NCBI RefSeq assembly: GCF_000377205.1
Contig: NZ_KB897905.1
Span: 430,586-494,585, forward strand
Length of the DNA: 64,000 nucleotides
Source: Thioalkalivibrio sp. ALJ3
GTDB taxonomy: Bacteria > Pseudomonadota > Gammaproteobacteria > Ectothiorhodospirales > Ectothiorhodospiraceae
Direction: 5' to 3'
Under the pieces are notes generated by a model. The model saw only the letters and a list, made by a program, of their open reading frames with translations. It had not been told where the DNA came from and did not search any database. This document shows, in pieces, positions 49,092 through 53,062 of the stretch (position 1 is the stretch's first letter; every line of letters starts with the position of its first letter). The position numbers were made by a program, and so were the translations under genes.

Positions 49092-50114
49092 ATGTTCGGT
49101 TTCCGCAAGAAGAAATCCGAAGAATCCACCGCGCCCAGCCCCGAAACCACGCCGGAGGCGCCGCCGGAAACCGCTGCGGATGGCCAGCCAGCCCGTGGGG
49201 GCGGCTGGTTCCAGCGCCTGCGCCAGGGCCTGGCCAAGACCGGCCAGGCGCTCGGCGGCGACCTCAAGAGCCTGTTCCGGCGCAAGATCGACGACGAACT
49301 GTTCGAAGAGCTGGAGGAACGTCTGCTCCTGGCCGATGTCGGCCTGGATGCGACCCAGCGGATCATGGATCGTATCACCCGCGAGGTAAAACGGCGCGAA
49401 CTGGACAACGCCGACGCGCTGATGGACGCGCTCGAGACCGCAATGGTGGAGATTCTGGAGCCGGTCTCGCGGCCCCTGGAGATCCCGCAGGCCGAGCGAC
49501 CCTTTTCGATCCTGGTGGTCGGCATCAACGGCGCCGGGAAGACCACCACGATCGGCAAGCTGGCGCATCGCTTCCAGGCGGAGGGCCGTTCGGTCCTGCT
49601 GGCCGCCGGGGATACCTTCCGAGCGGCCGCCGTCGAGCAGCTGCAGACCTGGGGCGAACGCAATGATGTCCCGGTGATCGCGCAGGGAACCGGGGCCGAT
49701 TCGGCCTCCGTGGTCTACGACGGCCTCCAGGCTGCCCAGGCGCGCAAGACCGACATCCTGATCGCCGATACCGCCGGACGCCTGCACACTCAGACCAACC
49801 TGATGGACGAAGTACGCAAGGTGAAACGCGTGATGGGCCGCCTGGACGAGAACGCCCCGGACGAGGTGCTTTTGGTGGTCGATGGCGGCACCGGCCAGAA
49901 CGCATTGAACCAGGCACGCCAATTCCACGAGGCCCTGGGCCTGACCGGCATCGTGGTCACCAAGCTGGACGGGACCGCCAAGGGCGGCGTCCTGTTCGCG
50001 CTGGCGGAGCAACTGGGCGTGCCGGTGCGCTTTATCGGTGTGGGCGAGAAGGCCGAAGACCTGCAGCGCTTTGATGCCCGCGCGTTCGTACGCGCACTGC
50101 TAGGGAAAGACTGA
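49092..50114 (+). CDS. ftsY: Signal recognition particle receptor FtsY
   Basis: 340 residues. A short acidic/Pro-rich A domain (about 1-45) precedes the N domain and the GTPase G domain with GINGAGKTTTIGKLA, DTFRAAAVEQLQTW, DTAGRLHTQTNLMDE and TKLDGTAKGG. FtsY receives ribosome-nascent chains from SRP at the membrane. The last codons and the stop lie inside the left arm of a 300-base inverted-repeat element, which separates ftsY from ftsE; normally the two are adjacent. Confidence 0.96.
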   Translation: MFGFRKKKSEESTAPSPETTPEAPPETAADGQPARGGGWFQRLRQGLAKTGQALGGDLKSLFRRKIDDELFEELEERLLLADVGLDATQRIMDRITREVKRRELDNADALMDALETAMVEILEPVSRPLEIPQAERPFSILVVGINGAGKTTTIGKLAHRFQAEGRSVLLAAGDTFRAAAVEQLQTWGERNDVPVIAQGTGADSASVVYDGLQAAQARKTDILIADTAGRLHTQTNLMDEVRKVKRVMGRLDENAPDEVLLVVDGGTGQNALNQARQFHEALGLTGIVVTKLDGTAKGGVLFALAEQLGVPVRFIGVGEKAEDLQRFDARAFVRALLGKD

Positions 50115-50401
50115 TCAATGTACACGCTCGCGTTGGTACCCCAGGTTTTCCGAGACAAGGCGCGTCGAGCAGCGGGTAGTGGTTCTACCCGCCCGTTTTT
50201 GACTGGTTCGGGGCGCAACGCAGGATCGGGGAACCTGGGGTGCCAACCCCGAAGGGGCTCGGCCGCCCGTTGTTATCGCAAACGGGCGCTCGCACGGCGT
50301 TGCGGCTCCCTTGTGCAGAATGACTGCACGGCAGTCGCCGCGCCTTGTTCGCGCGCAAAAGCGACTCGAGCGCGAGCGTGTACATTGATCAGTCTTTCCC
50401 T
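50102..50401. repeat. 300-bp MITE-like element with perfect 31-bp terminal inverted repeats
   Basis: The arms at 50102-50132 and 50371-50401 are exact inverted copies over 31 bases (outer end AGGGAAAGACTGATCAATG). Between them lie several hairpins: GCGGGTAG/CTACCCGC (50172-50192), GCCCGTT/AACGGGC (around 50265-50286) and GTGCAG/CTGCAC (50313-50329). Both flanks contain ACAAGGCGCG beside an arm, in opposite orientation. The left arm includes the last four codons and stop of ftsY. No open frame is convincing and no target-site duplication is obvious. Confidence 0.85.
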
Positions 50402-50425: not shown

Positions 50426-51097
50426 ATGATCCAGTTGCAGCGCGTAACCAAGCGCTTTGGCAGCGCGGCCGATGCGCTGTCCAATGTCAGCCTGAGAGTG
50501 GATGCGGGCGCCATGGCCTTTGTCACCGGCCCGTCCGGGGCCGGCAAGAGTACGCTGCTGCGACTGATCGCCGGGCTGGAGCGCCCGACCCGCGGTCGTA
50601 TCCGCGTGAACGGGCACGAGCTGGACCGCCTGTCGGCTCGGGCCATCCCGCGTTTTCGCCGCAGTATCGGCCTGGTCTTTCAGGACCATCGCCTGCTGTT
50701 CGACCGCCCCGTGTTCGACAACGTCGCCCTGCCGCTGGAGATCCTGGCCTATCGCCGCCCGGAGATGCGCAAGCGGGTACGCGCGGCGCTGGACAAGGTC
50801 GGGCTGCTGCACAAGGAGACGGTCAACCCGCGCACCCTGTCCGCTGGGGAGCAGCAGCGCGTCGGCATCGCCCGGGCCATCGTGCACCGGCCGGTGCTGT
50901 TGCTTGCGGACGAGCCAACCGGCAACCTGGACCCGGCCTTGTCGGAAGAGATCCTCGCGCTGTTTGACGACTTCAACCGAGTGGGCATGACCGCATTGGT
51001 CGCGAGTCATGACCTGGAGCTGATCGGCCGCATGGGCAAACCGGTCCTGCACCTGGAAAACGGCCGCATCGAAGCCCGCGGCGGGGCGAGCGCATGA
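50426..51097 (+). CDS. ftsE: Cell-division ABC ATPase FtsE
   Basis: 223 residues. Walker A is GPSGAGKST (35-43), the signature LSAGEQQRVGIARAIV, Walker B LLLADEPTGNLD and the His switch LVASHDLELI. With FtsX it forms a mechano-transducer that activates peptidoglycan hydrolases (via EnvC in E. coli) and stabilises the divisome. The ATG at 50426 is 25 bases beyond the right arm of the repeat element. Its stop overlaps ftsX by four bases. Confidence 0.96.
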   Translation: MIQLQRVTKRFGSAADALSNVSLRVDAGAMAFVTGPSGAGKSTLLRLIAGLERPTRGRIRVNGHELDRLSARAIPRFRRSIGLVFQDHRLLFDRPVFDNVALPLEILAYRRPEMRKRVRAALDKVGLLHKETVNPRTLSAGEQQRVGIARAIVHRPVLLLADEPTGNLDPALSEEILALFDDFNRVGMTALVASHDLELIGRMGKPVLHLENGRIEARGGASA

Positions 51098-52023
51098 GAC
51101 CCGGGCGCCGCCTGTTCGATGCCCTGCCCGCCTGGCTGGACAGCCACCGCGATGCCGCTCGGCGCAGTCTTGGCCGGCGACTGCAGGCCCCGGTACTGAG
51201 CCTGATCACCATCGCGGTACTGGGCTTCATCCTCGCGCTCCCCGCCTATCTCTGGGTGCTGCTGGACAACGCGCGCGCCCTGTCGGCGCATGTCGACCAC
51301 GACCCGCGCATCGCGCTTTATCTCGATCATGTCGACGAGGAAACCGCCGACCGGCTGCAGGATGCGTTGGATGACGACGAACGCGTTGCACGCTGGGAGC
51401 GCATCGACGCCGACACCGCACTCACTGCTTACCGCGACAGCCTGCCGGACCCGGAACTGCTGGACTGGCTGGAGGACAACCCGCTACCGGACGTGATCGA
51501 TGTTGTACCCGCCAGCACGCAGCCGGACACGGTGGCGGCACTGCGCGACGACCTGCGGGCACTGGCGCCCGACGCCGGAGTGGTCGCCGACGACGAATGG
51601 GTACGCCAGCTCAACAGCCTGCACGAGCTGGGTCTGCGCATCCTGTCCGTGGTCGTCGCACTGCTGGGCCTCGGCGCCGTGTTGATCCTGGCGCTCGCCA
51701 CCGCCTCGGAGCTGCGCGAACGTCAGGAAGAGATCGCAATCTCGCGCATCAGTGGCGCAACCCACCGCTTTCTGCGCCGCCCGTCGCTGTACGGGGGTGT
51801 GCTGACCGGGTTCGGTGGGGGTATCTTCAGCGTGATCCTGCTGCTGGTGGGGGTCGCGTTGAGCCGCGAACCGCTGACCGAGGCCGCCGCCGCGTTTGAT
51901 CTGGAGTTCACCCTGCGCCTGCCGCATGCCGGGGATATTCTGGGCCTGATCCTGGTGGGCCTGATACTGGGCTGGCTGGGCGCACGACTGGGCAGCGGCC
52001 ATGCCCTGCGCGACGCGCCCTGA
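51094..52023 (+). CDS. ftsX: Cell-division permease-like protein FtsX
   Basis: 309 residues with a cytoplasmic N-terminus, a first span at about 40-60 (LSLITIAVLGFILALPAYLW), a large periplasmic domain (about 65-165) rich in Asp and Glu, and three C-terminal spans with ASELRERQEEIAISRISGATHRFLRRP, the FtsX signature. It anchors FtsE and transmits its ATPase cycle to the periplasm. It overlaps ftsE and is followed after 103 bases by rpoH. Confidence 0.95.
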   Translation: MRPGRRLFDALPAWLDSHRDAARRSLGRRLQAPVLSLITIAVLGFILALPAYLWVLLDNARALSAHVDHDPRIALYLDHVDEETADRLQDALDDDERVARWERIDADTALTAYRDSLPDPELLDWLEDNPLPDVIDVVPASTQPDTVAALRDDLRALAPDAGVVADDEWVRQLNSLHELGLRILSVVVALLGLGAVLILALATASELRERQEEIAISRISGATHRFLRRPSLYGGVLTGFGGGIFSVILLLVGVALSREPLTEAAAAFDLEFTLRLPHAGDILGLILVGLILGWLGARLGSGHALRDAP

Positions 52024-52065
52024 GCGCGCGCGGAGCAACAAAAACTCCCGGAACTTTCAGCGGGT

Positions 52066-52092
52066 TTAGCACTCTATTCCCGCGAGTGCTAA
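52066..52092 (+). promoter_or_regulatory. Perfect CIRCE operator (HrcA site) upstream of rpoH
   Basis: TTAGCACTC, then nine bases, then GAGTGCTAA: an exact match to the CIRCE inverted repeat bound by HrcA. It ends 34 bases before the rpoH ATG, so it is at or near the promoter. It predicts that HrcA represses rpoH and that heat or unfolded protein releases it. Confidence 0.93.
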
Positions 52093-52126
52093 TCTCTGTC
52101 TTTATTCTCTGGAGGCATCCATCACG

Positions 52127-52996
<870 letters not shown>

Positions 52997-53022: not shown

Positions 53023-53062
53023 AAAAAAGGCCCCGACCGCTTGTGCGATCGGGGCCTTTTTT
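53023..53062. terminator. Strong bidirectional terminator between rpoH and the cco operon
   Basis: AAAAAAGGCCCCGA and TCGGGGCCTTTTTT form a 14-base stem (53023-53036 with 53049-53062) with a 12-base loop that can pair further. It gives a T-tract on both strands, ending rpoH on the plus strand and the ccoNOQP-to-small-ORF operon on the minus strand. Confidence 0.93.

Follow-up and report, generated by a model that had tools for sequence, protein, structure and literature searches.

The rpoH gene of Thioalkalivibrio sp. ALJ3, which encodes the heat-shock sigma factor sigma-32, is preceded by a perfect CIRCE element that is quite probably a functional HrcA operator within the rpoH promoter region, from which HrcA would repress rpoH transcription driven by sigma-E and sigma-70. 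The element (TTAGCACTCTATTCCCGCGAGTGCTAA, with no mismatches) has the arms TTAGCACTC-N9-GAGTGCTAA of the HrcA operator motif, overlaps predicted sigma-E and extended -10 elements, and is separated by 34 nt (positions 52093-52126) from the rpoH ATG at 52127. Within the window, by which we mean the whole 64-kb stretch of DNA that was analysed (64,000 nucleotides), it is the only CIRCE with three or fewer mismatches, the expectation being 0.01 per window. The preliminary description had reported an exact CIRCE 34 bases ahead of the rpoH ATG, and both the element at positions 52066-52092 and the identity of the reading frame, which is RpoH by a curated model, are confirmed. The features of the region are listed in Table 1.

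Table 1. Features of the rpoH region of the window, with positions counted from the first base of the window.
Feature	Coordinates	Strand or direction	Basis and remarks
FtsX-like gene	51094-52023	same direction as rpoH	FtsX-like from position and sequence
Sigma-E type -35 element GGAACTT	52050-52056	+	conserved column block in the family
Perfect CIRCE (putative HrcA operator)	52066-52092	+	left arm 52066-52074, spacer 52075-52083, right arm 52084-52092
Weak -35-like TTAGCA, predicted	52066-52071	+	4/6 match to TTGACA, 18 nt before the -10
Sigma-E type -10 element TCTAT	52073-52077	+	sequence match
Extended -10-like TGC-TAATCT	52087-52095	+	overlaps the CIRCE right arm; TGCTAAnnT in relatives
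rpoH, heat-shock sigma factor sigma-32	52127-52996	+	TIGR02392 and RpoH box
Probable intrinsic terminator 3' of rpoH	about 53031-53062	+	by eye: GGCCCCGA...TCGGGGCC and a T run

The product of rpoH matches the TIGR02392 equivalog model with 393.6 bits (cut-off 323.1) and contains the RpoH box QRKLFFNLR, and the gene is 97% identical at the DNA level to rpoH of Thioalkalivibrio sp. ALJ21. Because the FtsX-like gene is transcribed in the same direction as rpoH and ends 42 nt upstream of the CIRCE, rpoH is the only one of the two neighbouring genes that the element can serve. The putative terminator, in which a run of T follows a GC-rich hairpin, is absent from the output of a consensus scan of the region. 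Elsewhere in the window, between ftsY-like and ftsE-like genes, a perfect 31-nt inverted repeat (AGGGAAAGACTGATCAATGTACACGCTCGCG) encloses 238 nt (positions 50102-50401); this segment also contains weaker internal inverted repeats and resembles a MITE or another small mobile element of that sort.

The genome (2.63 Mb in 12 contigs, 99.95% complete) contains just two CIRCE elements with three or fewer mismatches, one at rpoH and the other, with a single mismatch, adjacent to groES. The regulator gene hrcA is present (TIGR00331, 333.1 bits against a cut-off of 197.2) and sits upstream of grpE, at a locus where the whole-genome scan, with up to three mismatches allowed, finds no CIRCE. The genome also carries rpoE (TIGR02939, 308.4 bits).

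A candidate sigma-E promoter is merged with the predicted operator, such that the TCTAT -10 straddles the junction between the CIRCE left arm and the spacer, with two bases in the arm and three in the spacer. The arrangement GGAACTT-N16-TCTAT scores 11 of 12 as a sigma-E promoter, its final base being T instead of A. When sigma-E promoters are called as GAAC, 15-17 nt and TC with a score of at least 9 of 12, one is present at 88 of 112 rpoH CIRCE sites in a class-wide sample (described below), as against a mean of 1.2 and a maximum of 5 in shuffled upstream sequences, and at none of the 20 groES CIRCE sites of the class control set. Among these 88 sites the spacing is 16 nt in 79, and 71 share an identical phase, the first base of the -10 being CIRCE position 8; the layout is found in at least one genome of 59 of the 75 families having CIRCE at rpoH. 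The remaining variation includes 13 sites at which a complete sigma-E promoter with its own TC element stands upstream of the CIRCE, and the motif is therefore not merely borrowed from the operator; at these 13 sites it is the start site, or the bases just downstream of it, that would fall within the operator. The first three spacer bases at the 112 sites prefer T (72 sites), A or C (84) and A (79), while the remaining spacer positions are nearly random and the preference is thus one-sided. The strict pattern GGAACTT-N15-17-TCTNA has no match in the whole genome, rpoH included since the sequence there ends in TCTAT, and the organism's own sigma-E motif is therefore not independently fixed, a null that carries little information because reversed controls yield one or two matches. 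The region upstream of rpoE has a partial match only (GAACTT...TCCAT), 72 nt before the rpoE start.

The right arm together with the bases that follow it (TGC-TAAnnT) is a predicted extended -10 of the sigma-70 kind, and the third base after the CIRCE is T at 106 of 112 rpoH sites versus 2 of 20 groES sites. This element is less certain than that for sigma-E: TAATCT in the window is weaker than the sigma-70 -10 of most relatives, and a strict sigma-70 promoter scan of the region reported no promoter. We note that CIRCE position 3 is G at 35 of the 112 rpoH sites, giving TTGGCA, which is nearer to the -35 consensus TTGACA, and that the mirror position 25 is never C. As a sign of -35 function this was dropped, the groES sites being alike, with G at position 3 in 6 of 20 (35 of 112 at rpoH) and likewise never C at position 25.

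A CIRCE with two or fewer mismatches is present in 45 of 45 readable rpoH upstream regions of the window's family. In an alignment of 44 of these members on the operator, conservation is limited to the arms, the GGAAC box, spacer positions 2-3 and the T of TAAnnT. The left arm reaches 2.0 bits per column and the right arm 1.8, values that derive in part from selecting the best CIRCE match within 380 nt; the GGAAC box (1.26 bits over seven columns) and the TAAnnT base (2.0 bits) played no part in the choice of site, and the distance to rpoH is about constant. Spacer positions 2-3 are at about 1.2 bits, and the flanks at 0.18 and 0.27. Separately, the right arm is changed from GAGTGC to GACTGC in about half of the 44 members (for example in loci L128 and L130-L135) beside an invariant left arm, a one-sided and unexplained departure of the operator; its third base differs from G in 26 members, being C in 24 and T in 2.

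The CIRCE at rpoH is neither peculiar to this genome nor a local oddity, as it occurs in about 45% of Gammaproteobacteria when families are balanced. In a sample of 276 family-balanced genomes of the class (including the former Betaproteobacteria), 113 match the strict CIRCE-rpoH core, of which one (G138) was excluded as a chance match without CIRCE ends and without hrcA, leaving the 112 sites used above; a relaxed pattern adds 13 genomes, for 125 of 276 in 75 families. HrcA was detected in 205 of the 276 genomes, and CIRCE-rpoH is found in 122 of these 205 versus 3 of the 71 without hrcA (Fisher odds ratio 33, p = 4e-18, which is optimistic given that the genomes are related). One genome in which hrcA was not detected (G127) has a groES CIRCE too, so hrcA may be missing from the assembly. 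In 83 of the 205 hrcA-bearing genomes CIRCE was not found at rpoH with the patterns used. For the groES control a gap of 25-55 nt proved too restrictive, matching 5 genomes, and a wider gap completed the set of 20 sites. In a scan of named genomes for CIRCE with an RpoH box at the right distance, at least 119 stretches were recovered, and RpoH was encoded by tblastn in 106 of 119 among the matches listed; the records among the matches listed include Methylocaldum, Alcanivorax, Pseudoalteromonas, Dyella, Rheinheimera, Variovorax, Comamonas, Hydrogenophaga, Nitrosomonas, Halieaceae, Woeseiaceae, Rhodocyclaceae and Thioalkalivibrio. In two class genomes (G187 and G268) the rpoH CIRCE has another CIRCE, or a CIRCE-like copy, as its immediate neighbour, so that some genomes may have tandem operators, and one locus of the named-genome scan (L103) has two CIRCE elements with the same spacer and no RpoH box downstream.

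The preliminary description had proposed that HrcA may control rpoH, with the two heat-shock regulators wired in series. The first part of this proposal gains support from the presence of hrcA (TIGR00331, 333 bits), from conservation of the palindrome (45 of 45 family regions and 125 of 276 class genomes) and from the predicted promoter overlap. A simple series omits the sigma-E promoter merged with the operator, and the predicted wiring is instead repression by HrcA of the sigma-E promoter and probably also of the sigma-70 promoter. On our best reading, the sigma-32 gene would receive signals of chaperonin shortage through HrcA and of envelope stress through sigma-E, and the layout probably joins three stress inputs at this one control point. 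Both -10 regions would lie under bound HrcA, and the active repressor, which in the titration model is sustained by free GroEL, would thereby occlude the two promoters and hold rpoH transcription low. When unfolded proteins occupy GroEL, HrcA would be lost and groESL and rpoH derepressed together, and envelope stress that also freed sigma-E would raise rpoH transcription further. The sequences, their fixed spacing, their conservation and their co-occurrence with hrcA are observed, as are rpoE and hrcA in the genome; promoter activity, start sites, binding and repression by HrcA, and the GroEL effect in this organism are inferences. GroE enhances HrcA binding in H. pylori, consistent with B. 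subtilis (PMC6032397). Control of rpoH by sigma-E is established in other Gammaproteobacteria, with ChIP and EMSA showing sigma-E acting on the rpoH promoter in Vibrio (PMC4890791). A broader view, which we regard as evenly poised between right and wrong, is that promoter and operator are fused at rpoH in Gammaproteobacteria, a state either ancestral or repeatedly gained. A single 27-bp HrcA operator would then supply the -10 of both the sigma-E and the sigma-70 promoter, the sigma-32 gene would be a gate with three inputs, and the textbook case would have arisen in lineages without hrcA, enterics included, through loss of the input from HrcA.

Post-transcriptional control of RpoH is known in enterics, and it favours a different weighting, in which HrcA binds at this site and is minor for sigma-32: translation, inhibition by DnaK/GroEL and FtsH would dominate, and the operator would trim basal mRNA. 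The lack of detected hrcA in 71 of 276 genomes points the same way, the input being dispensable in the class. A near-invariant operator amid a strongly diverged region, however, together with its occurrence in 75 families, implies a selected and non-trivial effect, and we consider a minor role for HrcA unlikely. We hold it far less probable still that selection for promoter function by itself maintains the palindrome, with its arms giving the sigma-E and sigma-70 elements and HrcA inactive there. The arms do overlap promoter elements, but these elements do not require the GCACTC and GAGTGC halves; furthermore, 122 of the 125 CIRCE-rpoH genomes have hrcA, and 13 genomes keep the CIRCE though their sigma-E promoter is separate.

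The inverted repeat could also be viewed as an RNA hairpin, acting in stability or thermosensing within read-through mRNA from the ftsX side, instead of as a DNA operator. CIRCE at the 5' end of a transcript can affect mRNA stability in B. subtilis, and the co-directional gene upstream of rpoH fits with read-through. The predicted starts, near 52083-52085 for sigma-E and near 52102 for sigma-70, however, lie within or downstream of the CIRCE, such that the main transcripts would not contain the whole element, and the third-base change of the right arm in 26 of 44 family members breaks an arm pair and is uncompensated, the left arm being invariant. No Rfam match near the gathering threshold is present in the region, and we give the hairpin very little credence.

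If HrcA gates rpoH in about 60% of hrcA-bearing Gammaproteobacteria, it would license sigma-E there, and the sigma-32 level would depend on the occupancy of GroEL (via HrcA) as well as on that of DnaK (via sigma-32 itself). Such an arrangement would also help to explain the persistence of HrcA in genomes with very few targets. E. coli, the basis of the textbook picture of sigma-32, yielded no HrcA match when the control genomes were searched.

The relationship to the HrcA/CIRCE regulon of the class I heat-shock genes of B. subtilis (groESL, hrcA-dnaK) is close, in that the operator is the same, hrcA is present and groES has a CIRCE, but here the target is the sigma-32 gene and the hrcA-grpE locus shows no CIRCE with up to three mismatches. 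The groESL CIRCE of the class likewise lie downstream of the promoter and near the expected transcription start; they are preceded, as is groES of this genome, by CTTGAC...CTAT-type (sigma-32/sigma-70-like) promoters and not by the sigma-E layout (0 of 20). We note that the groES CIRCE (L002 1501-1527 and the class loci) follow a CTTGAC...CCCTAT-like promoter of sigma-32/sigma-70-like type, so that groESL may be under both sigma-32 and HrcA. A perfect CIRCE at -51 of Geobacter sulfurreducens rpoH is predicted in the accessible part of an earlier analysis (Rodionov 2004, PMC545781, Table 8), which does not mention there an overlap with sigma-E; that prediction concerns one deltaproteobacterium, whereas CIRCE at rpoH is widespread in Gammaproteobacteria here. 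The same source cites work on beta-, gamma- and epsilonproteobacteria (Permina and Gelfand 2003) in which a CIRCE at rpoH may have been listed already, and the word HrcA is absent from the accessible text of the Leyn 2016 regulon survey. No description of a merged CIRCE and sigma-E architecture at rpoH was found in the literature accessible to us; an earlier beta/gamma prediction, if one exists, would most likely be in Permina and Gelfand 2003. As far as these sources extend, CIRCE before rpoH (as a prediction) and sigma-E promoters of rpoH are already known, and what is new is an operator built into the rpoH promoters.

The rpoH gene of E. coli has a sigma-E-dependent promoter, P3. A predicted promoter of sigma-E type stands directly before rpoH in Thioalkalivibrio sp. 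ALJ3, as with E. coli P3 and in Vibrio alginolyticus (PMC4890791), but differs from these in that its -10 lies inside the predicted HrcA operator.
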